From: Bacillota bacterium
GTDB lineage: Bacteria; Bacillota; Clostridia; Clostridiales; Clostridiaceae
Reading direction: 5' to 3'
Assembly (NCBI GenBank): GCA_030705885.1
Contig: JAUZPN010000011.1
Coordinates: 1-34,004 of the forward strand
Length of the DNA stretch: 34,004 nt
Shown here: in pieces, positions 561 through 28,755 of the stretch
How the letters are laid out: each line of letters starts with the position of its first letter
Position numbering within the stretch: position 1 is the stretch's first letter
Translations under genes and position numbers: made by a program
Notes under the pieces: generated by a model
The model's database searches: none
What the model saw: the letters and a program-made list of their open reading frames with translations, nothing else
Told to the model about the DNA's origin: nothing

Positions 561-594
561 GTAGGTAGTAGGTAGGGACGGTTAACATGTTAAC
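561..594 (+). repeat. REP-like copy 1 (plus orientation) with abutting 7-bp duplication
   Basis: GGGACGGTTAACATGTTAAC lies at 575-594. The unit GTAGGTA is present twice in perfect tandem (561-567, 568-574) and touches the first G of the motif. The inverted partner is at 761-773, so the pair could frame a roughly 200-bp unit that also contains R2 copy 1. Confidence 0.8.
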
Positions 595-695
595 TATCCT
601 CGGTCACAAAGTTCTATTAAATTTACAAAAGAAGTTTCTCATTGCTACCTTTTACAAATTAATTGGAACTAAATATGATTAAGAAAAGTATATTT
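594..695 (+). repeat. R2 dispersed palindromic element, copy 1
   Basis: The element begins CTATCCTCGGTCACAAAG and ends near GGAACTAAATATGAT followed by a GAAAAGTATA tail. AGTTC near the left end can pair with GGAACT near the right end, and AAATT with AATTA inside. It lies between the outward-facing REP pair 575/773. The rest of the 401-bp gap between the glycosyltransferase and the ABC operon is AT-rich and holds nothing else recognised before the promoter. Confidence 0.65.
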
Positions 696-760
696 TAACT
701 TTTTACCTTTTAAGACATTAGTAACAAGTAATAATAAAACTAATATTTAAAATAAAAAAA

Positions 761-787
761 TGTTAACCGTCCCTTGTTTTTTGTTTT
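761..787 (-). repeat. REP-like copy 2 (minus orientation) with abutting 7-bp duplication
   Basis: TGTTAACCGTCCC lies at 761-773, the inverse of the motif at 575. TTGTTTT occurs twice in perfect tandem at 774-780 and 781-787, immediately next to the CCC end. As in all minus copies it is preceded by an A-run (AATAAAAAAA). Confidence 0.8.
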
Positions 788-790
788 CTA

Positions 791-846
791 TTGACCACAT
801 GGTCAAGAAGTGATATTATATACCTATGTAATGACCAAGTGGTCAT
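791..846 (+). promoter_or_regulatory. Promoter of the ABC/TetR operon with two TetR-type operators
   Basis: The -35 TTGACC (791-796) and -10 TATTAT (814-819) are separated by exactly 17 bp. Two palindromes of the same form overlap this promoter: TTGACCACATGGTCAA at 791-806 covers the -35, and ATGACCAAGTGGTCAT at 831-846 lies just past the expected transcription start. Their centres are 40 bp apart. The shared half-site TGACCA, with a 2-bp spacer, is typical of TetR-family operators. A TetR gene closes the operon, so autorepression with ligand-released export is the natural reading. The ribosome binding site GGGAGG follows at 861-866. Confidence 0.8.
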
Positions 847-874
847 TAAAATTTCATATAGGGAGGATAAAATA

Positions 875-1795
875 ATGATTGTCATTGAAACAAATCACTT
901 ATGCAAGAGATACGGAAAAGATAGAGGAATAATAGATGTAAACCTAGCAGTTAAACAAGGTGAAACCTTTGGATTCATAGGTCCAAATGGTGCAGGAAAA
1001 TCTACAACAATACGAACACTACTGAATTTTATATTTCCAACTTCCGGAGAGGCTAAAATAAATGGACTTGATTGTATTAAGAATAGCAAAAAAATACGAC
1101 AGATAATAGGATATCTTCCAAGTGAAGTTAATTATTATGATGATATGAATGCTGGGCAGCTATTTAAGTATTCATCAAATTTTTATAAGAAGGATTGTAC
1201 AAAAAGAATAAATGAACTTTGTGAAATTTTTCAAGTTGATAAGTCTAAAAAAGTAGGTGAAATGTCACTTGGAAATAAAAAGAAGGTTGGTATAGTACAA
1301 GCACTTTTACATGAACCTGAAATATTAATTTTTGATGAGCCAACAAGTGGGTTAGATCCTCTTATGCAAAAGATGTTTTTTAACGTTTTGAAGGAGCAAA
1401 ATAAAAAAGGAACTACTATATTTTTTTCATCACACATTTTAAGTGAGGTTCAAGAAATTTGCAGCAGGGTTGCAATTATAAAGGAAGGTAAAATCTTAAA
1501 AACTGATGAAGTATCAGTCCTTAGAAATTCGCAGTTTAAGAAAATAATGATATGTCTTTCAGAAGAGAACATAATTGATATTTCTGAAATTAATATAGAT
1601 GGTGCTGTTAATATAAAAATAGAACAAGACAAGAAAAATACAATTACATTTTTGTATACTGGCAAAATTGATGACTTACTTTATAATCTGCATAAATTAA
1701 AATTAAGTAACTTGTTAATTGAAGAACCATCACTTGAGGAGATATTCATGCATTATTATGAGAAAGAAGAGGTGAAAAATGATGAACTTATTTAA
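875..1795 (+). CDS. ABC transporter ATP-binding protein (ABC-2 type exporter)
   Basis: This 306-residue ATPase powers the permease encoded next to it. Walker A is GPNGAGKST at residues 36-44, the signature is the variant MSLGNKKK, Walker B is ILIFDEPTSGLD and the switch histidine is in FFSSHILSEVQ. The last 90 or so residues form the variable C-terminal region common to CcmA/YhaQ-type antibiotic exporter ATPases. I place the start at ATG 875 behind GGGAGGATAAAATA. An open frame reaches back to a TTG at 791, but that codon lies inside the promoter -35 and operator and cannot be the start. The gene overlaps the permease by 17 bp, so the two are translationally coupled. The substrate is unknown; toxic amphiphiles or antibiotics are typical for this arrangement with a TetR regulator. 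Confidence 0.92.
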   Translation: MIVIETNHLCKRYGKDRGIIDVNLAVKQGETFGFIGPNGAGKSTTIRTLLNFIFPTSGEAKINGLDCIKNSKKIRQIIGYLPSEVNYYDDMNAGQLFKYSSNFYKKDCTKRINELCEIFQVDKSKKVGEMSLGNKKKVGIVQALLHEPEILIFDEPTSGLDPLMQKMFFNVLKEQNKKGTTIFFSSHILSEVQEICSRVAIIKEGKILKTDEVSVLRNSQFKKIMICLSEENIIDISEINIDGAVNIKIEQDKKNTITFLYTGKIDDLLYNLHKLKLSNLLIEEPSLEEIFMHYYEKEEVKNDELI

Positions 1796-2582
1796 GAGGG
1801 AATTAAGGCAAGGATTAACAGGATTTTTAGTTTGGAGCATAACTTTAGGAATTTTAATATTTTTTACTATGAGTATATTTCCTTCTGTTTCAAGTAGCAA
1901 CATTGAATTAAATCAATATATAAAAAGTCTTCCAACTTCCATGGCTAAAGCATTAAGTCTTAATAATTTGAACATGTCGGACATGCTAAGTTTTTATAAT
2001 AGTTGCATAGGTATTTATATTATTTTATGTGCTGCAATTTATGCCATGCTTTTTGGGACAGGAATAATATCAAAAGAAATTAATGATAAGACTGTAGAAT
2101 TTTTACAATCAAAACCTATAACAAGAAGTTCAATAATAACACAAAAACTTATACCACGAATTTTTTATGTAATTGCTCTTAATATGCTCTTATTTTTAAT
2201 GACTTATTTTTCATTTGAACATGTAAAAAAATCTGATTATTCCATAGAAAAACTGCTTCTAATCTTTATAGGATATACTATTATTGAGATAACTTTTGTG
2301 AGTCTAGGATTGTTTTTATCACTAATTATTAAAAATAAAAAAATATCAACAAATTTAAGTATTTGGACTGTATTTGGAATGTATCTTTTATATATACTTG
2401 CTGGAATTTCAGATAAGTTTTCATATTTAAAATGTTTTACACCCTTTAAATATGCTGATGCATCAGATATAATAGCTGATGGAAAGCTTAAAGCAGTGTA
2501 TATTATTATACTTACTATTGTTAATATGATTTTAATAGGTGTATCATATATAATATACAACCATAAGGACATATCAGTTTAA
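1779..2582 (+). CDS. ABC-2 type permease subunit
   Basis: The 267-residue protein is very hydrophobic with about six membrane segments, the layout of ABC-2 permeases. The first segment follows a short basic N-terminus (MMNLFKRELRQG) and starts near FLVWSITLGILIFF. The next are around YIILCAAIYAML, YVIALNMLLFLM, LLIFIGYTIIEI, WTVFGMYLLYIL and VYIIILTIVNMI. The sequence KEINDKTVEFLQSKPITRSSI between segments 2 and 3 is the usual cytoplasmic coupling region. Translation starts at ATG 1779 or, better spaced from GAGGTG (1769-1774), ATG 1782. It forms the membrane half of an exporter with the upstream ATPase. The ligand cannot be read from the sequence. Confidence 0.9.
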   Translation: MMNLFKRELRQGLTGFLVWSITLGILIFFTMSIFPSVSSSNIELNQYIKSLPTSMAKALSLNNLNMSDMLSFYNSCIGIYIILCAAIYAMLFGTGIISKEINDKTVEFLQSKPITRSSIITQKLIPRIFYVIALNMLLFLMTYFSFEHVKKSDYSIEKLLLIFIGYTIIEITFVSLGLFLSLIIKNKKISTNLSIWTVFGMYLLYILAGISDKFSYLKCFTPFKYADASDIIADGKLKAVYIIILTIVNMILIGVSYIIYNHKDISV

Positions 2583-2639
2583 TAGTTATTTATAAAATTG
2601 AATTGTTATATTGTATAAACTTACGATGAGGTGATATAC

Positions 2640-3266
2640 TTGTACGAAAACTTTGAAAAACTTCCATTTGAGAAAAGAAAAAGAATTATAGATGTATGTA
2701 TAGAAGAATTTGGCGATAAAGGATATACTAATGCATCAACAAATACAATAGTAAAAAATGCAGGCATATCAAAGGGGACGCTTTTTAACTATTTTGATAA
2801 TAAAAAAAATCTTTTTCTTTTTATACTTGATTATACAACTGATTATTATGTTGATTTTATGATAAGAGAAATGAAAGTAAATAGCTCTGACTTTTTTAAA
2901 AGAGTTCTTGATTGGGCTGAACTTAAAATAAAAGTATCTTTAAATGAACCTTTAATATATAGGTTTTTTATTACAGCATATACAAATATACCAGATGAAT
3001 TAAATCAAGATATTTCAGAGAGATATAAGAAACTCTCTGAGAAAGGTTTATTCCTTGCTTTGGATGGAATAGATTATTCAAAATTCAGGGATGATATAGA
3101 CAAGCAAAAAACTATAGAACTTTTATTAATAATCCTAACCAATTTACCCAAAGAAGATATAAATAAGTTGGGTCTAAGCGATGATAAGGGGTTAAATACT
3201 ATAAATGAGAGATTTGAAAAATTAAAGGAATACGTTGATATTTTATGTAAGGTATTTTACAAATAA
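2640..3266 (+). CDS. TetR/AcrR family transcriptional regulator
   Basis: About 208 residues. The N-terminal helix-turn-helix is clear: RIIDVCIEEFGDKGYTNAST, then IVKNAGISKGTLFNYFDNKK, the classic TetR recognition helix region. The C-terminal two thirds is the variable ligand-binding domain. I prefer the TTG start at 2640, because the ribosome binding site GAGGTGAT (2628-2635) sits at the right distance; the alternative GTG 2631 is inside that site. Third gene of the operon, 57 bp after the permease. The two palindromes at 791 and 831 are the obvious operators, so it probably represses its own operon until an exported compound binds. The protein-operator link is inferred from proximity and symmetry. 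Confidence 0.9.
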   Translation: MYENFEKLPFEKRKRIIDVCIEEFGDKGYTNASTNTIVKNAGISKGTLFNYFDNKKNLFLFILDYTTDYYVDFMIREMKVNSSDFFKRVLDWAELKIKVSLNEPLIYRFFITAYTNIPDELNQDISERYKKLSEKGLFLALDGIDYSKFRDDIDKQKTIELLLIILTNLPKEDINKLGLSDDKGLNTINERFEKLKEYVDILCKVFYK

Positions 3267-3288
3267 ATACGTTTGTCTCGTTCGTTTA

Positions 3289-3307
3289 GGGACGGTTAAC
3301 ATGTTAA
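3289..3307 (+). repeat. REP-like copy 3 (solo)
   Basis: GGGACGGTTAACATGTTAA lies 22 bp after the TetR stop. No inverted partner was found within the following gap. This is the only copy without a clear tandem duplication on its outer side (only a weak TCGTTCGTT). The rest of the 390-bp gap 3267-3656 is AT-rich without recognised features except the hairpin at 3614. Confidence 0.75.
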
Positions 3308-3613
3308 TTGTAAATGATAATATATACAGCTTTAAGAATTAATTAAGTTTATGTATTTATTGACTTTACAAAATTTAGATGTTACAATTAATTCATCTTA
3401 TGAAAGTTAAGAGGAAGATTATTATGTAATAAGTAGATTTATCTAAGCAGAATTAGCGGAATTAAAGTTGTAAATTCATAAAAAATGCTATTTTTATGAG
3501 TCTATTTTTTATATTCTTGTTTAGTTTTGAGATAATTTACTTTTTATAACCATAATAATTACCTTAAAAAGAATATATCTTTTAGGTTTATTAGTGTTGT
3601 GAAAAGATTAATT

Positions 3614-3633
3614 TGCAGCACTTTTTTGCTGCA
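3614..3633 (+). promoter_or_regulatory. Hairpin just upstream of the RNA ligase start
   Basis: TGCAGCA (3614-3620) and TGCTGCA (3627-3633) form a perfect 7-bp stem with loop CTTTTT, ending 10 bp before the AGGAG ribosome binding site (3643-3647). It could affect mRNA stability or initiation of the RNA-repair operon. Its role is unproven. Confidence 0.4.
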
Positions 3634-3656
3634 TAAATTTAAAGGAGATGACTTTT

Positions 3657-4454
3657 ATGGAATTAATTTATAAATATCCAAGAACCCCTCATCTTGAAGG
3701 TTCAAGACTTCAGCAGGGAGATGAGAATTTAAATAGCATAAAATTTGAAAATATTAAAAATAAATTTTGTGTACTTGAGGAAAAAGTAGATGGAGCTAAT
3801 TGTGGGATTAGCTTTGATAAAAATGGAAAAATGTATTTACAAAGCAGAGGACATTTTTTAAATGGTGGTTATGGAGAAGCTCAATTTAATTTGTTCAAAA
3901 CTTGGGCAAATATATTTAAGTATAGTCTGTGGGAAATTTTAAGTGATAGATATGTTATGTATGGTGAGTGGCTTTATGCTAAACATACTGTATTTTATGA
4001 TGAATTGAATCATTATTTTATGGAATTTGATATATTTGATAAGGTTGAACAAAAGTTTTTAAACACTAAAAGAAGAAGAGAGATTCTTAAGAAATACTTT
4101 TTTATAAAGTCAGTACTGGTTTTAAAGAAAGGAATAATTACAAGCAAGAATGAAATTACATCAGCATTATTGAAGTCAAATTTTAAATCGGATAAGTGGC
4201 AGGAGAATCTAGAGAAAACTTGCAGTGAATTAGGATTATCTTATGAAATTGCAAAAAAGCAAACGGATTGTACTGATTTAATGGAAGGTATATATATTAA
4301 GGTAGAAGATGATAATTATGTTATTAATAGAATGAAGTATGTAAGAGCTTCGTTTTTAAATACAATTTTGGATTCTGAAACTCATTGGGCTAATAGACCC
4401 ATAATCCCTAATAAATTAAAGTTAGGAATAGATATTTTTTCTGAGGAAGTGTAG
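3657..4454 (+). CDS. ATP-dependent RNA ligase, Rnl2-like
   Basis: 265 residues, about the size of a stand-alone nucleotidyltransferase core. The adenylation motif I is EEKVDGAN with the predicted AMP-accepting lysine at K43. Further motifs are QSRG (Ia-like, near 62-65), FMEFDIFDK (III/IIIa), MEGIYIKVEDD (IV) and RMKYVR (V). This is a complete covalent nucleotidyltransferase core that should seal 3'-OH to 5'-phosphate ends of RNA or nicked duplexes using ATP. The N-terminal segment KYPRTPHLEGSRLQQGDE precedes motif I. Start is ATG 3657, 9 bp after AGGAG; ATG 3648 directly follows the ribosome binding site and is too close. The next gene, 4 bp downstream, is HD-Pnk, which prepares ends for exactly this reaction, so the two form a heal-and-seal pathway. 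Natural substrate (cleaved tRNA, rRNA or DNA) is unknown. Confidence 0.88.
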   Translation: MELIYKYPRTPHLEGSRLQQGDENLNSIKFENIKNKFCVLEEKVDGANCGISFDKNGKMYLQSRGHFLNGGYGEAQFNLFKTWANIFKYSLWEILSDRYVMYGEWLYAKHTVFYDELNHYFMEFDIFDKVEQKFLNTKRRREILKKYFFIKSVLVLKKGIITSKNEITSALLKSNFKSDKWQENLEKTCSELGLSYEIAKKQTDCTDLMEGIYIKVEDDNYVINRMKYVRASFLNTILDSETHWANRPIIPNKLKLGIDIFSEEV

Positions 4455-4458
4455 TTTT

Positions 4459-5550
4459 ATGGATATTGAAAAGTTTGTAATACAAAATAACTATAATTTC
4501 AAGGAAATAGCAAAAAAATTTAATATTATTGATAAGCTTAATGAAGTTCAGCAAAATCCTAAGTATCATGGTGAAGGTAATGTTTATAATCATACTGAAT
4601 TAGTCTGCAGTGAAGTTTTAAAGCTTAATGAATGGCAGGAGTTAAACGATAGAGAAAAAGTTATTTTATATATTTCAGCATTATTCCACGATATTGGCAA
4701 GCCTTTTACCACGCGGGAAGAAGCAGGAGAAGTAGTTTCACCTAAGCATGGTTTAAAAGGTGCTAAAATATTTAGAGATTTAGCATATAGAGAGTATGAA
4801 ATTGATTCAAATATAAGAGAACAAATAGCAGCAATAATCAGGTACCATGGCTTGCCATTAAATTTTCTTGATAGACAAAATATTGATTATGATCTTATAA
4901 AGACAGCAGAGATTACAAATATGAAACTTCTTTATTTACTAGCAAAGTGTGATTTACTGGGAAGGTATTGCCAGGATAAAGAGCTATTACTTGACAAAGT
5001 TATGTATTTTAAATTATATTCGGAGGAATTAAGATGTTTTTATGGCCATAAAAAGTTTAAGAATGATTATACAAGATTTCTATATTTTGCAGAAAATAAA
5101 GTTAGGTATGATGCAGAAATTTTTGATAATAGAAAATTTGAAGTTATAATCATGGTTGGACTTCCTTTATCAGGAAAGGACACTTATATAAATAATAACT
5201 TTAAGAAATTAAAAGTAATATCATTAGATGATATTAGAGAAGAACTTAAAATTTCATCTAATAAGGATTTTGGTCAAGTTGCAGCTGTTGCATTTAGCAG
5301 GGCAAAGGAACTTTTAAGAAAAAGAGAAGGCTTTGTTTGGAATGCTACTAATTTGAGAAGAGAAAACAGGCAGAAGCTGATAAGGTTATTTAACTCTTAT
5401 GAGGCAAAAATAAAATTTATTTATTTAGAAATTCCTTATAAAGAGTTGATTTCAAGAAGTAAATTAAGAGAAAGATATGTGCCAATTGAAGCTATAAATA
5501 AAATGATAAAAAATATGGATATGCTTGAAGGTGAGGAATTAGACAATTAA
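4459..5550 (+). CDS. HD-Pnk: HD-domain 2',3'-phosphoesterase fused to 5'-OH polynucleotide kinase
   Basis: 363 residues with two enzymatic domains. Residues 1-200 form an HD phosphohydrolase: H45, the doublet H77-D78 in LFHDIGKP, H97, H130 in RYHG and D165 are candidate metal ligands. Residues 225-363 form a P-loop kinase of the T4 Pnk/zeta class: GLPLSGKDT at 234-242, SLDDIR near 255, and lid arginines in RSKLRERY. This is the architecture described for Runella slithyformis HD-Pnk, which removes 2',3'-cyclic or 3'-phosphate and phosphorylates 5'-OH ends, and which is often encoded beside a ligase. Here it starts 4 bp after the RNA ligase stop, with its GAGGAAG site inside the ligase gene. 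The activity assignment follows the family; the biological trigger is unknown. Confidence 0.88.
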   Translation: MDIEKFVIQNNYNFKEIAKKFNIIDKLNEVQQNPKYHGEGNVYNHTELVCSEVLKLNEWQELNDREKVILYISALFHDIGKPFTTREEAGEVVSPKHGLKGAKIFRDLAYREYEIDSNIREQIAAIIRYHGLPLNFLDRQNIDYDLIKTAEITNMKLLYLLAKCDLLGRYCQDKELLLDKVMYFKLYSEELRCFYGHKKFKNDYTRFLYFAENKVRYDAEIFDNRKFEVIIMVGLPLSGKDTYINNNFKKLKVISLDDIREELKISSNKDFGQVAAVAFSRAKELLRKREGFVWNATNLRRENRQKLIRLFNSYEAKIKFIYLEIPYKELISRSKLRERYVPIEAINKMIKNMDMLEGEELDN

Positions 5551-5554
5551 GACA

Positions 5555-5634
5555 GCTAGCAGCTAGGTAGCAGCTAGGTAGCAGCTAGGTAGCAGCTAGG
5601 TAGCAGCTAGGTAGCAGCTAGGGACGGTTAACAT
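5555..5634 (+). repeat. REP-like copy 4 with five-copy 11-bp tandem array
   Basis: The unit GGTAGCAGCTA occurs five times without error at 5566-5620, preceded by one copy with a single mismatch (5555-5565). It abuts GGGACGGTTAACAT at 5621-5634. The array starts 4 bp after the HD-Pnk stop codon. This is the largest of the duplications found next to the REP motif. Eleven-bp units without spacers exclude a CRISPR. Confidence 0.85.
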
Positions 5635-5643
5635 TTTATTGTG

Positions 5644-5712
5644 ACATTGAACATTGAACAGTTAGAACAGTTAGGGACGGTTAACATGTTATTATTGACC
5701 GTCCTTTTTTAT
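5644..5712 (+). repeat. REP-like copy 5 with nested duplications; terminator-like hairpin
   Basis: GGGACGGTTAACAT lies at 5674-5687. Directly before it GAACAGTTA is duplicated (5656-5673), and before that ACATTGA is duplicated (5644-5657). The copy is followed by a degenerate inverse half, TTGACCGTCC (5696-5705), and a T-rich run to about 5712. GGACGGT/ACCGTCC can pair, so this could end the RNA-repair transcript. Confidence 0.7.
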
Positions 5713-5772
5713 TTTTTAGGATATCAGTAACAATTAATTATAAAATTGATTATAAAATAAAAAATATAAAAA

Positions 5773-5798
5773 TGTTAACCGTCCCTTTTTCCCTTTTT
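5773..5798 (-). repeat. REP-like copy 6 (minus orientation) with 8-bp duplication
   Basis: TGTTAACCGTCCC lies at 5773-5785. CCCTTTTT is present twice in tandem (5783-5790, 5791-5798), sharing the CCC end of the motif. It is the closest copy to the RAYT gene, which starts 76 bp further on. Together with copies 4 and 5 it accounts for most of the 323-bp gap 5551-5873; a TATAAT at 5833-5838 may be the -10 of the RAYT promoter, without a clear -35. Confidence 0.75.
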
Positions 5799-5873
5799 AT
5801 TTATTAGGTGGTTAAAGAATTCTATTTATGGATATAATTCAAAACAGATTAATATTTAAAGAGGTGTTGATTT

Positions 5874-6800
5874 ATGCCAAGAACAGCAAGAAAAAAAGAA
5901 GAAAGTGGAATATATCATGTTATGGCAAGGAGCATAAGTGAAATTTTATTATTTAAAACAGAGGATGATAAGAAAAAGTATTTAATGATTATAAAAGAAT
6001 ATCAAAAGATATTTAATTTTGTTATTTATGCTTATTGTATTATGGATAATCATGTTCATTTAATTATTTATTCTAATGGTGCTGATATTTCAAAAATTAT
6101 GCATTGCATCAATTTTAAATATGCTATGTATTTTAATAAAAAGTATGATAGGCATGGACATCTTTTTCAAGATAGGTTTAAGAGCAAGGTTGTAAATGAT
6201 GATAGATATTTAATTGCATTATCAGCATATATTCATAATAATCCAGTAGATGTTAATGGATATGAAAATAATCCAGAAAGCTATAGGTATTCAAGTTTAG
6301 GTTTATATTTGGGATTAAGAAAAGATGAATTTAATATTGTAAATAAAAAATTTATTTTAGATATATTTGATGAAGATAAAAATAAAGCGAAGAGAAGATA
6401 TTTTGAGTTTATAACAAAATCAACTGCTAGTAATTTAGAAGATGTAGAAAATATGAATATTGAATTTGATAATGATAAAAGTGAATATCGAAGTGAAAAA
6501 ACTATATTGATAAGAAACTATAAAATTGAAGATATAATACAATACGTAGTAGATAAATTTGCAATAAAGAAGTCATTAATTTATATAAAGTGCCAAAGGA
6601 AAACTACAAAAATAAAAGGTGCACTTATTCTTTTGCTTAGAAATTTATGTAATATGAGCTGCAAAGATATATGTAGTACATTAGGAAATATAACAAGTTC
6701 TAGAGTTTCAAAATTGTGCAGTATTGGAGTAGAATTTATAAGCAATGATGATAAATATAGTGATATTGTAGATGGATTTTTGAAATGCTATAGCCATTAA
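5874..6800 (+). CDS. REP-associated tyrosine transposase (RAYT), Y1/HUH family
   Basis: 308 residues. The N-terminal 160 residues are the Y1 transposase-like domain: the start PRTARKKEESGIYHVMAR, the HUH metal motif at H60-V61-H62 in MDNHVHLII, a tyrosine-rich helix (KYAMYFNKKY, 82-91) expected to hold the nucleophile, and GHLFQDRFKS and YIHNNPV (119-125), the hallmarks of RAYTs. Residues from about 215 resemble the DnaA C-terminal helix-turn-helix fused to many Firmicute RAYTs (ILLLRNLCNMSCKDICSTLG). RAYTs are usually single-copy, do not move like insertion sequences, and act on short palindromic REP sequences. GGGACGGTTAACA copies sit directly upstream and at three other places in the first 9.1 kb. 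Start ATG 5874 follows GAGGTG. Family is near certain; REP partnership is inferred from proximity. Confidence 0.9.
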   Translation: MPRTARKKEESGIYHVMARSISEILLFKTEDDKKKYLMIIKEYQKIFNFVIYAYCIMDNHVHLIIYSNGADISKIMHCINFKYAMYFNKKYDRHGHLFQDRFKSKVVNDDRYLIALSAYIHNNPVDVNGYENNPESYRYSSLGLYLGLRKDEFNIVNKKFILDIFDEDKNKAKRRYFEFITKSTASNLEDVENMNIEFDNDKSEYRSEKTILIRNYKIEDIIQYVVDKFAIKKSLIYIKCQRKTTKIKGALILLLRNLCNMSCKDICSTLGNITSSRVSKLCSIGVEFISNDDKYSDIVDGFLKCYSH

Positions 6801-6953
6801 ATAAATATTAACTTAATTATTATAAGAAAGTTTATAAACAAAAGATTATTAATAATTTTATATTTTCTAAATTTCAAATTCTTAATATCTAATCTTTGAT
6901 AATTATACCTAATTTCCTGAATTTCTATAATTCCCGGTTTTTTATTAAATAAA

Positions 6954-6982
6954 TTTTGAACCTTTTACTTAGATGAATACTC
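6954..6982 (+). promoter_or_regulatory. Possible ECF-type promoter of the sigma gene
   Basis: TTTTGAACCTTTT with core TGAACC at 6957-6962 resembles the TGAAAC-T-rich -35 recognised by many ECF sigma factors. A plausible -10 (TACTC region, 6978-6982) follows about 16 bp later, upstream of the ribosome binding site. If real, the sigma factor would drive its own operon. Confidence 0.3.
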
Positions 6983-7005
6983 TTATATGTGAAAGGAGGA
7001 GATGT

Positions 7006-7542
7006 ATGCAAGAAGTTGATTTGGTTATTAATGCGCAAAAAGGTGATAAGAAAGCTTTAATTGAATACATATTGAAAAGAAGAGATGAATATTACAGATT
7101 AGCTTATGTGTATGTTAAGAATCAGGAAGATTCATTGGATGCACTTCAGGAAATGATTGTAATTATATTTGAAAATATAAGAAAATTAAAAAATGTAGAT
7201 TCTTTTGTGCCTTGGAGTAAGACTATTTTAGTAAATTGTTGTAAAAATATTTTGAAAAAGAAAAATAAAGTGATTTTAGTAGAGAGCTATCAGGAAAGAG
7301 AGTTTATTGAGAACTATAAATATATAGATCAAAGTATTGATATCGAAAATGCATTGGAGAGACTTAATTTTAAACAGAGAGAAGCTATAAAATTAAAATA
7401 TTATCTTGGATATGATTATGAAACCATAGCTCAAATAACTAAAACGCCAATAGGTACTGTAAAATCCAGAATTTCTAATGGACTTAAGCTTCTTAAAAAG
7501 GTGATGAAGGTTGAAGAGGTTAGTAAAAACTATGCAAAGTAA
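7006..7542 (+). CDS. RNA polymerase sigma factor, ECF subfamily
   Basis: 178 residues, the usual ECF size. Region 2 runs through DEYYRLAYVYVKNQEDSLDALQEMIVIIFENI, with the DALQE segment that contacts core polymerase. Region 4 is LERLNFKQREAIKLKYYLGYDYETIA, then the recognition helix GTVKSRISNGLKLLKK. I place the start at ATG 7006 behind AAAGGAGGAGATGT; an open frame reaches back to ATG 6973 but lacks a ribosome binding site. The downstream DUF4179 membrane protein is the typical anti-sigma-like partner of this SigV-like group. The pair should respond to an envelope signal and redirect transcription. The stimulus is not visible. Confidence 0.9.
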   Translation: MQEVDLVINAQKGDKKALIEYILKRRDEYYRLAYVYVKNQEDSLDALQEMIVIIFENIRKLKNVDSFVPWSKTILVNCCKNILKKKNKVILVESYQEREFIENYKYIDQSIDIENALERLNFKQREAIKLKYYLGYDYETIAQITKTPIGTVKSRISNGLKLLKKVMKVEEVSKNYAK

Positions 7543-7676
7543 TTAAGAAAGGATGGTGAAAAGCTGATTTCTTAGTAAAGTATCAACAAAGCGTCTTAAC
7601 AACAATTTTATTATAAGTAAAGATATTAGAAGTAAAGTTAAGAGCTCAATGAATTTGCTTTTGGAAATCAAGTAAA

Positions 7677-8969
7677 ATGAAAAATATTGAAGAAATATTA
7701 AATAATAAAAAAATTGATATAGATCAAATAAAGGCACCAGAAAATATAGAAGGAAGGCTTTTTGACGCGTTAGATAGTGTAAAAGTTATAAAAACAAAAA
7801 ATAAAATTAATTATAAAATTGCAGCAGCAGTAATTTTATTGGTCTTATTAGTAGTGTACAGTCATGATACATTAGCTTACTTTGGAGAGAAAATAATAGG
7901 ATATGACAATATACAAAGTGGAAGCTTAGATAATCTTAATAATAATGGTATGGGGCAGAAAATCAATAAAAGTTATAAATTTTCTGATGGTACTATTGTA
8001 ACATTAGATGGAGTAATTTATGATGATAAAAATTTATATACACTATACTCTGAAAGAAATGAAGATAAAGAAATAGATAGTAGTGAGTTTGGCAGCAATA
8101 TGATTAATATTGTAGGGTGTATGGAGTATAAAAATAGTACATGTACTGGAGAAATAACTGATGATAAGAAACAAATGAATAATGTTATGAAATTTAGTGC
8201 TCCAGCTTTTTATGAGAGAAAATTAACCTTTAGTATCTGCAGAAATGTAAATGGCAAGAGTGAGACAGGAAATATTAGCTTTGTGCTTGATAGAAGTAAA
8301 GCTATAAAAAGAAGTTTAAATAAAAATATTAATAAAACTGTAACTTTAAATGGACATAAAATAAATTTTAAAACTATTTCTGTATCACCTCTTGGAATTG
8401 AGGTTAAAGGAACAATTGATTCTTTAATTGATTATGTTTTACATCATAATAATGAACAATATAATGTGAGTTTTGATGTAGTTGCAGATGATAAAGTAAT
8501 TAGCAATATAGAAAGTGGTTCAGGAAACAGTGCATCTTTAAAAGGACTTGGAAGAACATTTTATAGTGATTTTGAGGGTATAAGTTCTTTTAAAAAGCTT
8601 GAATTATCCAATATAATTTTAAATCAAACAAAATATTATAATAGTTCAGCAAAATCTTTTAATTTAAACAGCAATACTGTTAATAAAAAAATTGATTTTG
8701 ATGGCACTAGTTTTGAAGTAGAAAAAGTATTTATAGATGGAGATTCTACTTGTGTTCAAATGATTAGCGGAAAAAATGCTGAAATAATAGGTGCAGGATT
8801 TTTTATAAATGGCCAAGAAGTACATTCTGAATATAAAGACTTAGAAGAGGTAGATAATGATAAGGTAAGAGTATTATGGAGAATCTATGGCAAGGGAGAG
8901 GATATTAAGTTTAAAATTAGAGGAATTAATTATTTTTCAAAGTATGACAATAAAATTGATGTAAAATAG
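7677..8969 (+). CDS. DUF4179 family membrane protein, probable anti-sigma factor
   Basis: 430 residues. About 45 cytoplasmic residues (MKNIEEILNNKKIDIDQIKAPENI) are followed by one membrane helix (IAAAVILLVLLVVYS) and a large extracellular beta-rich region. The latter contains the DUF4179 core (KINKSYKFSDGTIVTLDGVIYD) and a second Ig-like or DUF5643-like half. In Firmicutes such proteins are encoded right after an ECF sigma gene and hold it at the membrane through the N-terminal tail. It lies 134 bp after the sigma gene. The start ATG 7677 has only a poor ribosome binding site (GGAAATCAAG), so translation may be weak. The stop codon TAG (8967-8969) is the first part of a 12-bp duplication belonging to the REP copy that follows. 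Confidence 0.75.
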   Translation: MKNIEEILNNKKIDIDQIKAPENIEGRLFDALDSVKVIKTKNKINYKIAAAVILLVLLVVYSHDTLAYFGEKIIGYDNIQSGSLDNLNNNGMGQKINKSYKFSDGTIVTLDGVIYDDKNLYTLYSERNEDKEIDSSEFGSNMINIVGCMEYKNSTCTGEITDDKKQMNNVMKFSAPAFYERKLTFSICRNVNGKSETGNISFVLDRSKAIKRSLNKNINKTVTLNGHKINFKTISVSPLGIEVKGTIDSLIDYVLHHNNEQYNVSFDVVADDKVISNIESGSGNSASLKGLGRTFYSDFEGISSFKKLELSNIILNQTKYYNSSAKSFNLNSNTVNKKIDFDGTSFEVEKVFIDGDSTCVQMISGKNAEIIGAGFFINGQEVHSEYKDLEEVDNDKVRVLWRIYGKGEDIKFKIRGINYFSKYDNKIDVK

Positions 8970-9002
8970 GAAAGCAGGTAGGAAAGCAGGGACGGTTAAC
9001 AT
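8967..9002 (+). repeat. REP-like copy 7 with 12-bp duplication covering a stop codon
   Basis: TAGGAAAGCAGG occurs twice in perfect tandem (8967-8978, 8979-8990), running into GGGACGGTTAACAT at 8989-9002. The first unit contains the stop codon of the DUF4179 gene, so the repeat sits at the very end of the coding region. Confidence 0.8.
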
Positions 9003-9005
9003 CTT

Positions 9006-9044
9006 AAAGCAAAACAGCAAAAGCAAAATAGGGACGGTTAACAT
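9006..9044 (+). repeat. REP-like copy 8 with imperfect 14-bp duplication
   Basis: GGGACGGTTAACAT lies at 9031-9044. The 14-bp segments at 9006-9019 and 9020-9033 match at 11 positions (AAAGCAAAA core). GGGACGGTTAACATTTT here pairs perfectly over 17 bp with AAAATGTTAACCGTCCC ending at 9080, giving a 50-nt hairpin between two operons. Confidence 0.75.
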
Positions 9045-9067
9045 TTTAAAAGAAATTAATAAAAAAA

Positions 9068-9116
9068 TGTTAACCGTCCCTAATCTCTAATCTCTACCTA
9101 ATCTCTAATCTCTACC
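9068..9116 (-). repeat. REP-like copy 9 (minus orientation) with perfect 18-bp duplication
   Basis: TGTTAACCGTCCC lies at 9068-9080, followed without a gap by TAATCTCTAATCTCTACC twice (9081-9098, 9099-9116). The duplication ends exactly where the TTGACA of the next promoter begins (9117). Confidence 0.85.
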
Positions 9117-27297: not shown

Positions 27298-28755
27298 TTA
27301 TGCAATCAATGGTTTTAGACTTCTGAGGTATTCATGCTTATGCATCTTATTGGCTACAATAACTGTTATCAGTTGAGATATACCGGCAAGAAGTAGATCA
27401 GCATGAAGAGTTTTTTCATTCTGAGTTTTGCGGTCTGAAATACAGTAGTTGTATTTAAAATGGTTGATGTCCTTTTCTACAACAGAGCGGATTTTATAAG
27501 TATCTTCCCATTCTTGTGTTCCTCTAGCTGTACCAGGATATGCACGTAAATTCTTTTCAGGATATATATAAAACATTCTGCCACATGGAGAATTAGTACA
27601 TGGATTTTCACAGAAAGTTAAGCGATGCTTTGTTTTAGTTACTTTATCCCATACCCATTTCATTTTAGGACATACGAATTTCATAGAAGGAATTCCAGAA
27701 CACAAGTGGGTTTTACTTCCTTCTCTCTTCATTGGAAGAGAAGGATCGAGAGGACAGCAAGGAAGACCATCTTCATTTAAAGGGCATTGTGCATCTTTCA
27801 GTTTAAGTTTGGTTTTTAAGGAAATATAAGCTTTTTCAAACTTTAATTCATGAAATATATCATGATAAATTTGAATACTATCAAAAGCAGCATCACCTAA
27901 GAAAATTTTTGGATTTAACAGCGGGTGTTTTGAAAAGAAATCCTTAAGTACTGGGATAAGTGCTTTAGAATCAGCAAGAGATTTATCCTCGTCGGGTGAA
28001 TCAGATTTTTTCTCAACAACAATATCAGGGTGAGTCTTTAGAAACTCTTGATTATAAAACGAAATATCCCGTACAATACCAAGTCCGTTGGTAATGATGC
28101 CAAACTTGAAGGAGTAGCAGAAGTGTCCATTAATATACATCTGCTGTATAGCTGGATTAGTTTCAGCATGAGAAGGCATAGATCCATAGGCAGCTTTATA
28201 AGGATCATAAGAATCGCCTAAGTTATGGGCTTTCTTAAAAACTTTAAGTTGCTTAATAATGCGATTAGCATATTTAGGGTTGTTTTCAGTTACAAAAGCT
28301 TCAATGCCTGAAGTATCGAAAATAGTCATAGAAGCAAGGTTAGCATCAATTTCTTGGCATATCGGTTCTGTAATATCAACTAAATGATCGAACATAGATT
28401 GTAAGTCCAAAAGGAAGTCCTGTTTAAAGCGAGTAAATTTAGAAGCATCCGGGACTTTAGAAAAGCCGCAAAAATCCCTTAATTCTTGTGAGAATTTAAG
28501 AAAAATGATTAAAAGGGAATCTGTTGGAATAGAAAAAATACGCTGTAAAATTAGAGCACGAAGCATAGCATAAAGCTGATATTTACGTGGTCTACCAGTG
28601 TAAGCGTAAAAATGGTTAATGAATGAAGCAGGAACTAAATTATCAAGATTAATAGTATTTTCGAGTAGAGAAAGAAACTGATATTTGTTGTTTTCAAATT
28701 TTTCTTTGCAATCAGAAAATATATCTGCCAAAGAAAGCTGTTTATGTGTTATCAT
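27298..28755 (-). CDS. DDE transposase of the IS1182-like element
   Basis: 485 residues, apparently intact. The N-terminal part has the helix-rich DUF772-type region (YTGRPRKYQLYAMLRALILQRIFSIPT and FCGFSKVPDASKFTRFKQDF). The DDE catalytic residues are likely the Asp in TIFDTSGIEAF, the Asp in IFLGDAAFDS and the Glu in SVVEKDINHFKYN. Between the second and third there is a cysteine-rich insert (CPLNEDGLPCCPLD, CPKMKW, CENPCTNSPCG), which could bind zinc and is usual in this clostridial branch. Start ATG 28755 follows AAAGGAG. It carries out cut-and-paste or replicative transposition of its own element. Confidence 0.9.
   Translation of the reverse strand: MITHKQLSLADIFSDCKEKFENNKYQFLSLLENTINLDNLVPASFINHFYAYTGRPRKYQLYAMLRALILQRIFSIPTDSLLIIFLKFSQELRDFCGFSKVPDASKFTRFKQDFLLDLQSMFDHLVDITEPICQEIDANLASMTIFDTSGIEAFVTENNPKYANRIIKQLKVFKKAHNLGDSYDPYKAAYGSMPSHAETNPAIQQMYINGHFCYSFKFGIITNGLGIVRDISFYNQEFLKTHPDIVVEKKSDSPDEDKSLADSKALIPVLKDFFSKHPLLNPKIFLGDAAFDSIQIYHDIFHELKFEKAYISLKTKLKLKDAQCPLNEDGLPCCPLDPSLPMKREGSKTHLCSGIPSMKFVCPKMKWVWDKVTKTKHRLTFCENPCTNSPCGRMFYIYPEKNLRAYPGTARGTQEWEDTYKIRSVVEKDINHFKYNYCISDRKTQNEKTLHADLLLAGISQLITVIVANKMHKHEYLRSLKPLIA

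Follow-up and report, generated by a model that had tools for sequence, protein, structure and literature searches.

Copies of a short repeat, GGGACGGTTAACA, in a Clostridiaceae genome carry tandem micro-duplications of their flanking DNA, with a strong bias towards the side of the GGGAC end. The effect is confirmed as real and general, as it is also seen in distant Firmicutes. The duplications have defined breakpoint positions, are associated with a TIRYT-type transposase and vary in copy number. This pattern suggests that TIRYT, or a block made by TIRYT, keeps adding small duplications, with both place and direction fixed. In the preferred reading, to which a probability of roughly 0.48 is assigned, the tandem copies would be the product of a cut-copy-rejoin side reaction of this enzyme.

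Motif copies and duplications in the window

The window, i.e. the whole analysed stretch of 34,004 nucleotides, contains nine exact copies of the motif, all of which had been located by the original prediction.

575..587, + strand: motif GGGACGGTTAACA
761..773, - strand: motif GGGACGGTTAACA
3289..3301, + strand: motif GGGACGGTTAACA, without duplication
5621..5633, + strand: motif GGGACGGTTAACA, upstream of the TIRYT gene
5674..5686, + strand: motif GGGACGGTTAACA, upstream of the TIRYT gene
5773..5785, - strand: motif GGGACGGTTAACA, upstream of the TIRYT gene
8989..9001, + strand: motif GGGACGGTTAACA
9031..9043, + strand: motif GGGACGGTTAACA, upstream repeat imperfect only
9068..9080, - strand: motif GGGACGGTTAACA, inverted partner of the 9031 copy

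The sequence GGGACGGTT(AACA/CT) is a short repeat flanking, and scattered by, TIRYT-type Y1 (HUH) transposases. The earlier label "REP-like" has to be replaced, since this is a TIRYT flanking repeat and not a palindromic REP of the GTAG type: the GTAG consensus that marks RAYT/REP membership was not found at the motif, and there is no stem in Clostridiaceae. Many motif copies are arranged as inverted dimers.

Exact abutting duplications were found on the GGGAC side at seven of the nine sites, in agreement with the original prediction, and at none of the nine on the opposite side. The copy at 9031 has an imperfect duplication only, and that at 3289 has none.

562..575, + strand: 7-bp unit TAGGTAG x2, abutting the motif at 575 and overlapping it by 1 nt
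774..787, - strand: AAAACAA x2 (TTGTTTT x2 on the + strand), low complexity, abutting the motif at 761-773
5557..5622, + strand: 11-bp unit TAGCAGCTAGG x6, ending 2 nt inside the 5621 motif
5657..5674, + strand: 9-bp unit AACAGTTAG x2, ending 1 nt inside the 5674 motif
5782..5797, - strand: 8-bp unit x2 of low complexity (AAAAAGGG type), extending 3-4 nt into the 5773 motif
8967..8990, + strand: 12-bp unit TAGGAAAGCAGG x2, starting with T and ending 2 nt inside the 8989 motif, no microhomology
9079..9114, - strand: 18-bp unit x2 (AGAGATT x2 within), ending 2 nt inside the 9068 motif

The array at 5621 counts six copies in the frame ending at the motif GG and five (GGTAGCAGCTA x5) in the frame used originally. 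Two of the seven duplications (761 and 5773) are of low complexity.

The transposase and its link to the motif

5874..6800, + strand: TIRYT, a 308-aa Y1/HUH transposase with a C-terminal DnaA-type HTH, by domain matches and alignment

The HUH domain matches Pfam Y1_Tnp (E 6e-17), and both N59-H60-x-H62 and Y119-IHN-NP, the class 2 tyrosine motif Y---NP, are invariant across nine homologues. At the C-terminus, residues 218-282 match Bac_DnaA_C with an E-value of 7e-4 and 20.1 bits, which is below the gathering score of 31.5; a match to this family is present in six of the nine homologues. The score against the RAYT/REP equivalog NF047646 of NCBIfam is 57.1 bits, under its cut-off of 80, and no PDB sequence match to the TIRYT profile was found. 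Motif copies flank TIRYT genes here and in relatives; GGGGACAG fits the TIRYT inverted-repeat consensus GGGGWSAS, and GGGGACGG deviates from it at one position. Judged by its motifs, domains and flanking repeats, the predicted protein is a TIRYT, TnpA-Y1 subclass 2.1.2 (HUH, Tyr, DnaA-type HTH), and not an E. coli-type RAYT.

The proposed link between the motif and the nearby Y1 transposase was borne out across genomes, as TIRYT is present in 35 of the 36 genomes with at least four motifs and in 25 of the 159 others (Fisher 3e-21). The same type of duplication is also found at distant TIRYT loci, whose inner motif is a different one, GGGACGGTTCT. The presence of TIRYT is nevertheless not sufficient, because motif-rich psychrophilic Clostridium with TIRYT genes has few duplications.

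Side bias and controls

With a score that tolerates imperfect repeats, duplications were detected in the window's own genome on the 5' (GGGAC) side at 16 of 40 scorable sites, scored on sequence stretches, and on the 3' side at 2 of 40. At randomly chosen non-coding positions, all over 200 bp away from a motif, the rate was 2.5 %, which gives a binomial P of about 1e-15 for the 5' side. Equal sides or a random-position frequency, named by the original prediction as evidence against it, were thus not observed genome-wide (16:2 and 2.5 %). Its claim that the side is always the same stands as a strong, genome-wide bias but not as an absolute rule, with exact duplications distributed 52:4 by side in all genomes first examined.

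Several of the compared genomes are drafts or MAGs. The side ratio was 24:5 in genomes of the Haloimpatiens group (n = 98 sites), 10:2 in Peptococcaceae BRH_c4b (G199) and 8:1 in Formimonas (G195). A replication set of 117 new sites yielded 18:2 for exact and 23:5 for imperfect duplications. The effect is lineage-dependent: it is strong in the window's own genome and the Haloimpatiens group and weak in psychrophilic Clostridium, where imperfect duplications at 113 sites were distributed 9:6 and exact ones numbered 3 of about 113. Duplications are also rare at the GGGACGGTTATCA variant in the own genome.

At the level of the pattern, these data refute chance, composition or an assembly artefact, and the probability left to such an origin is negligible. 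The flanks are AT-rich, assemblies are draft and low complexity affects two of the seven duplications in the window, but controls at random positions, at shifted positions and on the opposite side all argue against it, and the bias towards the same side recurs in the Formimonas genome, which is a single contig, and in a genome of five contigs (G032).

Structure-driven slippage at a hairpin of the repeat or of its inverted partner is largely refuted and very improbable as well. It would suit the many motif copies in inverted dimers and the motif's position as the loop of a real stem-loop in G195 and G199 (z about 8). However, the motif of Clostridiaceae lies in no stem (z of -0.3 in the own genome), and duplications occur at lone copies whose 3' flank shows no inverted copy (L002 1762, L004 2729, L007 11680). 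Duplications were found at 0 of 30 other strong intergenic hairpins, ruling out general hairpin stalling, and at 0 of 51 REP hairpins of E. coli K-12, ruling out a general RAYT/REP property. The GGGACGGTTCT loop in G195 and G199 had pointed to the 5' arm of the stem as the duplicated unit. As a general account this was rejected, because Clostridiaceae have no such stem and yet show the strongest effect.

Copy-number variation and breakpoints

Unit number varies, both between contig ends and between related species, in the comparison of strains and orthologous sites that had been proposed. Two overlapping contig ends of the own assembly, which differ by 1 SNP in 321 bp, carry TATCAG x3 and x4, respectively. 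At orthologous sites, units of 10-12 bp were gained in G132 (compared to G120 and G083) and in G135 (compared to four relatives), each without a longer intermediate. Indels at most 15 bp from the motif numbered 28 on the 5' side and 5 on the 3' side in 49 orthologue pairs with at least 85 % identity, which were drawn from other genera and are not independent. These copy-number differences support the earlier notion of a process acting repeatedly at the GGGAC end.

Units start 4-11 nt upstream of the motif, and in 63 of 80 events they end 0-2 nt into it. Since the unit mostly takes in one to three G of the motif, the breakpoint lies just inside GGG, which corrects the original placement. Longer tandem arrays of flank, motif and spacer, similar to BIMEs, could in principle have lost most of the motif by internal deletion, leaving X-G..-X. 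Units with long motif prefixes do occur (GGGACGGTTAA, GGGACG; L081 18779, L238, L215), and arrays of 44-56 bp are common in some genomes. This decay is nonetheless quite improbable, as only 0-2 nt of motif are found in those 63 of 80 units and the gains in G132 and G135 are direct.

Among 73 two-copy events, microhomology is zero in 34 and at least 1 nt in 39, the latter consistent with slippage (mean 1.36 nt, 0.41 expected). Of 34 unambiguous events, 24 have N^T as their left breakpoint (10.2 expected; 0 of 20,000 permutations as high), whereas ordinary tandem duplications show no preference for T (124/314 vs 119.5 expected). By lineage, the discovery set has a T start in 20 of 24 events in Clostridiaceae and in 4 of 10 in other TIRYT lineages, where units often begin at C. 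The T preference was kept as a Clostridiaceae-only feature because the replication set gave 4 of 10 (2.5 expected, P = 0.2).

The main rival to the preferred reading is a roadblock without a cut, in which a replication or repair polymerase would stall at the motif bound by TIRYT or another protein, and the nascent strand would slip back 7-12 nt. Short insertions are commonly tandem duplications, and both the clustering of unit ends within 0-2 nt of the motif edge and the 39 events with microhomology fit this explanation. It is considered unlikely, although it deserves more weight than the others: microhomology is zero in 34 events, slippage does not predict the T start in Clostridiaceae, and a block met from both directions should duplicate the inner side too, in contrast to the observed 52:4.

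The two breakpoints differ in context (N^T vs G^G). This argues against a sister-copy exchange, in which TIRYT would cut within GGG on one sister, 4-11 nt upstream on the other, and join the two crosswise without DNA synthesis, since one enzyme should use one type of site. Such an exchange is improbable, even though TnpA-REP enzymes in vitro cut REPs at several neighbouring positions and join them again (PMC8266576), microhomology would not be needed, and arrays of whole motif-plus-spacer units (22-56 bp) were found.

Proposed mechanism

For the cut-copy-rejoin reaction, we infer nicking, extension and rejoining by TIRYT, and the choice of strand, from breakpoint sequence and polarity. HUH enzymes leave a 3'-OH upstream, from which synthesis or strand transfer can start, and a 5'-phosphotyrosine downstream; E. 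coli TnpA-REP cleaves at C|T, with the tyrosine on T (PMC8266576). Motif-bound TIRYT would nick one strand nearby, in Clostridiaceae probably 5' of T and 4-11 nt upstream, and would hold the 5' end as a phosphotyrosine, with the 3'-OH left at the flank. A polymerase would then elongate this 3'-OH by about 7-12 nt, up to the edge of the TIRYT-bound GGG, and rejoining of the elongated end to the held 5' end would leave the segment present twice. Arrays would arise by repeated rounds of nicking, extension and rejoining, and a rare longer extension would copy the motif as well, giving units of 21-25 bp. The product would be no different if the other strand were nicked at CCC and extended into the flank.

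Relation to known systems

TIRYTs and their TIRtrons (De Nocera 2013, PMC3733652) correspond to TnpA-Y1 subclass 2.1 (2.1.2), or RAYT group 1 (Quentin 2018, PMC6006769). The system described here shares with them the Y1/HUH transposase with a DnaA-type C-terminal HTH, a gene between inverted repeats close to GGGGWSAS, and repeats scattered as singles, dimers and clusters. The available parts of these two papers, however, neither describe one-sided tandem micro-duplications nor list high-copy Clostridiaceae and Peptococcaceae families with the present motif. REP/BIME systems with a RAYT (TnpA-REP) in E. coli and Pseudomonas likewise have a domesticated Y1 transposase adjoining its own repeats, and tandem clusters that take in flanking DNA are known for them (PMC3733652, PMC3116915). 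In contrast, the Clostridiaceae motif has no GTAG foot or palindromic stem, and its tandem unit is mostly flank without the repeat, a duplication seen at none of the 51 E. coli REPs. IS200/IS605 elements (IS608, ISDra2) rely on HUH chemistry too, their 3'-OH and 5'-phosphotyrosine ends lying on a defined side of the element, but their transposition is precise and leaves no tandem flank copies. Rolling-circle initiators (HUH Rep) are alike by analogy only, in that nicking, primed extension and rejoining are carried out by the same active site, whereas about 10 nt would be copied in the proposed model and no replicon is involved. A literature search for the motif or for side-specific duplications found no published description.

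Domesticated Y1 transposases of the TIRYT class are widespread, and the consulted portion of the literature demonstrates no reaction for them in the cell. The genome-wide mutational footprint, with its side, breakpoints and recurrence, provides a direct in vivo read-out of TIRYT-class activity. It is conceivable, at somewhat less than even odds, that TIRYTs act as chromosomal "tandem writers", which would nick, extend briefly on a template and rejoin, each round adding a flank copy of roughly 10 nt, always on the 3'-OH side of the motif, and so produce one-sided, self-extending microsatellites without microhomology. If TIRYT does copy and rejoin its flank, new tandem repeats would have, beside ordinary slippage, a further source that is defined, directional and independent of microhomology.

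One-sided duplications in the genome

The 13-nt motif GGGACGGTTAACA, which has a GGGAC end (5' side) and an AACA end (3' or inner side), occurs at 43 sites across the assembly (3.0 Mb, 249 contigs, completeness 78%), compared with 0 occurrences of its reversed control string. Nine exact sites lie in the window (contig C13, G+C 28.7%), matching the earlier observation in number and position, and seven of them carry an exact tandem duplication adjoining the GGGAC side, as had also been claimed.

Features of the window
575, 761, 5621, 5674, 5773, 8989, 9068: motif, exact abutting duplication on the GGGAC side
9031: motif, imperfect duplication
3289: motif, no duplication
5874-6800 (+): 308-aa Y1 transposase gene, directly 3' of three motif sites
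27298-28755 (-): DUF772 transposase, weak IS1182-like match under the curated cut-off
599, 11632, 16298, 32002 (-): MITE-like element

Two of the seven duplications (761 and 5773) are of low complexity, and none of the nine sites shows a duplication on the AACA side. At the 40 sites in the genome that could be scored, 17 exact duplications lay on the 5' side and none on the 3' side, while a mismatch-tolerant score that leaves out low-complexity cases gave 16 and 2. The claim that the side never differs is better put as a strong bias: 3'-side cases occur under the tolerant score and in other genomes. Random positions, named beforehand as a comparison that could refute the idea, fell far short of these 16 sites: 2.5% of non-coding positions more than 200 bp away from every motif score, corresponding to an expectation of about 1 in 40 (binomial P about 1e-15), and chance is poorly supported as an explanation. 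Since the inner side of the repeat plays no part in this control, a constraint there does not account for the 5'-side excess.

Two other dispersed repeats were observed. A sister motif family, GGGACGGTTATCA, with TTATCA replacing TTAACA, has about 20 sites and few duplications in this genome, and may be the repeat of a different transposase. The MITE-like element, about 105-115 bp with long inverted ends (TATACTATCCTCGGTCACAAAGTTCCA ... TGGAACTAAATGTGACCGAGGATAGTATA), also occurs in the DNA stretches L002, L004, L007, L010, L013, L106, L112 and L113; Rfam gave no match to it in the window, L002, L004 and L112. One of its ends adjoins the GGGACGG motif at 575-600.

Transposase identity and distribution

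The 308-aa protein matches the Y1_Tnp domain (E 6e-17) and has a C-terminal Bac_DnaA_C-like stretch, which scores below threshold and is matched by six of nine homologues; its HUH residues N59-H60-x-H62 and its Y119-IHN-NP motif are invariant in all nine. It had been taken for a RAYT. It misses the cut-off of the NCBIfam REP-transposase equivalog (57 vs 80 bits); judged by its sequence, it fits TnpA-Y1 subclass 2.1.2. Quentin et al. treat this subclass and the De Nocera et al. TIRYTs as one, and the flanking-repeat consensus published for the latter is GGGGWSAS (PMC6006769, PMC3733652). The GGGGACAG variants of this genome fit that consensus, whereas GGGGACGG is off by one base. Transposase and repeat are of a known kind, TIRYT/TIRtron. 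Two further such genes in this genome (contigs C90 and C7) have inward-pointing motif copies on either side of each.

The motif is present in 47 of 195 genomes of the Clostridiaceae family. The proposed link to a nearby Y1 transposase is supported by TIRYT carriage (E <= 1e-70) in 35 of 36 genomes with at least four motifs vs 25 of the 159 others (Fisher 3e-21). Duplications on the 5' and 3' sides numbered 24:5 at 98 sites of three genomes (probably Haloimpatiens lingqiaonensis, Clostridium sp. KNHs214 and a third) and 9:6 at 113 sites of psychrophilic Clostridium (C. frigoris, C. bowmanii and others). A search for related proteins led to distant TIRYTs with the repeat GGGACGGTTCT and again one-sided duplications, at 10:2 of 30 sites in Peptococcaceae BRH_c4b (G199) and 8:1 of 57 in Candidatus Formimonas warabiya (G195); loci in Desulfobacteraceae SURF_67 and Bacillota AS08 are likewise one-sided. 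Comparison of both sides, also suggested beforehand, gave unequal counts: 52:4 exact duplications in all earlier site sets pooled without the TIRYT-locus set, then 18:2 exact and 23:5 imperfect at 117 new sites (G197, additional G199 sites, Lutibacter sp. B2 and Anaerophilus).

Hairpin slippage, in which a stem at the repeat would cause the duplications, is poorly supported. In G195 and G199 the flanks of GGGACGGTTCT are mutually reverse-complementary (ATTCAATTCA-GGGACGGTTCT-TGAATTGAAT; z about 8 vs shuffled partners), but no stem surrounds the motif in this genome and other Clostridiaceae (z near 0; maximum 2.9, in psychrophilic Clostridium). A stem is unnecessary for the duplications, since they are strongest where none exists. 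Duplications were found at either foot of 0/30 strong intergenic hairpins and at the GTAG foot of 0/51 E. coli K-12 REPs. In the G195 and G199 loci (L214-L263), GGGACGGTTCT forms a constant loop and the stem covaries, differing by subfamily (GTGAGTCAG/CTGACTCAC, TGCGACAG/CTGTCGCA, ATTCAATTCA/TGAATTGAAT).

Copy-number change

Copy number at the motif flanks changes within the assembled population and between related species. Contigs C109 and C234 share 321 bp at their ends. Apart from one SNP, the shared stretches differ only by TATCAG x3 vs x4 beside a GGGACGGTTATCA motif; they are therefore two versions of one locus. Among orthologues, AAAAGTTGGGCT-AAAGTTG|GGGACGG in G132 contrasts with a single copy in G120, and AAATAAGTAG-AAATAGTTAG|GGACGG in G135 with a single copy in G083 and the other relatives compared. 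Within 15 bp of the motif, indel events numbered 67 (5') vs 28 (3') in 103 orthologous pairs, which share species and are non-independent, and 28 vs 5 in the 49 likewise non-independent pairs at least 85% identical.

In psychrophilic Clostridium the motif clusters in a single 20-25 kb region, every 1-3 kb, with a TIRYT gene within (G120:C1:37570-60882, G132:C1:4771072-4793471, G083:C1:4105650-4127711, G135:C5:57320-76151), and orthologous sites match up across species. Separately, the end of contig C79 (L104 958-1367) and the start of C191 (L108 1-410) are 98.5% identical over 410 bp, which suggests that strains are mixed in the assembly.

Anatomy of the units and possible mechanism

Of 80 exact events, 63 have a unit reaching 0-2 nt into the motif, 13 one reaching 3-5 nt and 4 one reaching 7 or 11 nt. 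The unit starts 4-11 nt upstream in 76 of them, and its length is mostly 6-12 bp. The unit is therefore the flank plus the first one or two G of the motif. Larger units of 21-22 bp contain most of the motif, and larger arrays consist of 44-56 bp REP+spacer units. The extreme case of a flank-plus-motif array is a 25-bp unit, GGAAATTTAGGGACGGTTCTTGTAA, repeated 25 times at exact spacing and extending past the contig end (G199 C19:85225-85835, L321). Decay of longer arrays, which would make the short duplications remnants, is poorly supported.

The first unit base is T in 24 of 34 unambiguous events (10.2 expected; 0 of 20,000 permutations reach 24), namely 20/24 at Clostridiaceae-type loci vs 4/10 elsewhere, and in 4/10 of a replication set mostly from other lineages (P 0.2). 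No such preference is seen among ordinary tandem duplications of the same DNA. The T preference, together with the absence of inner-side events, speaks against the main rival, polymerase slippage at a TIRYT roadblock, which is favoured by a slight excess of junction microhomology (mean 1.36 vs 0.41 expected; absent from 34 of the 73 two-copy events) and is considered rather unlikely.

When an HUH enzyme cuts, the upstream side is left with a 3'-OH and the downstream side with a 5' end linked to the tyrosine; E. coli TnpA-REP cleaves C|T (PMC8266576). Given the observed position, side and recurrence of the duplications and their TIRYT association, a family of nick-copy-rejoin models on either strand is assigned slightly less than an even chance (about 0.48) of explaining them. 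The TIRYT would sit on GGGACGG and nick the DNA a few nt further upstream, in Clostridiaceae 5' of T. A polymerase would then copy the short flank as far as the bound motif, and the extended end would be joined back to the 5' end that the enzyme has kept. Each round would add one copy of the flank plus 0-2 G, without microhomology, always on the GGGAC side and repeatably. Nicking the other strand at CCC and extending from there into the flank would yield an identical product, indistinguishable in these data.

No description of one-sided, ongoing micro-duplication was found in the literature searched, which left out most subscription journals and preprints. The mutational behaviour at the motif makes the function of the TIRYT enzyme class testable.
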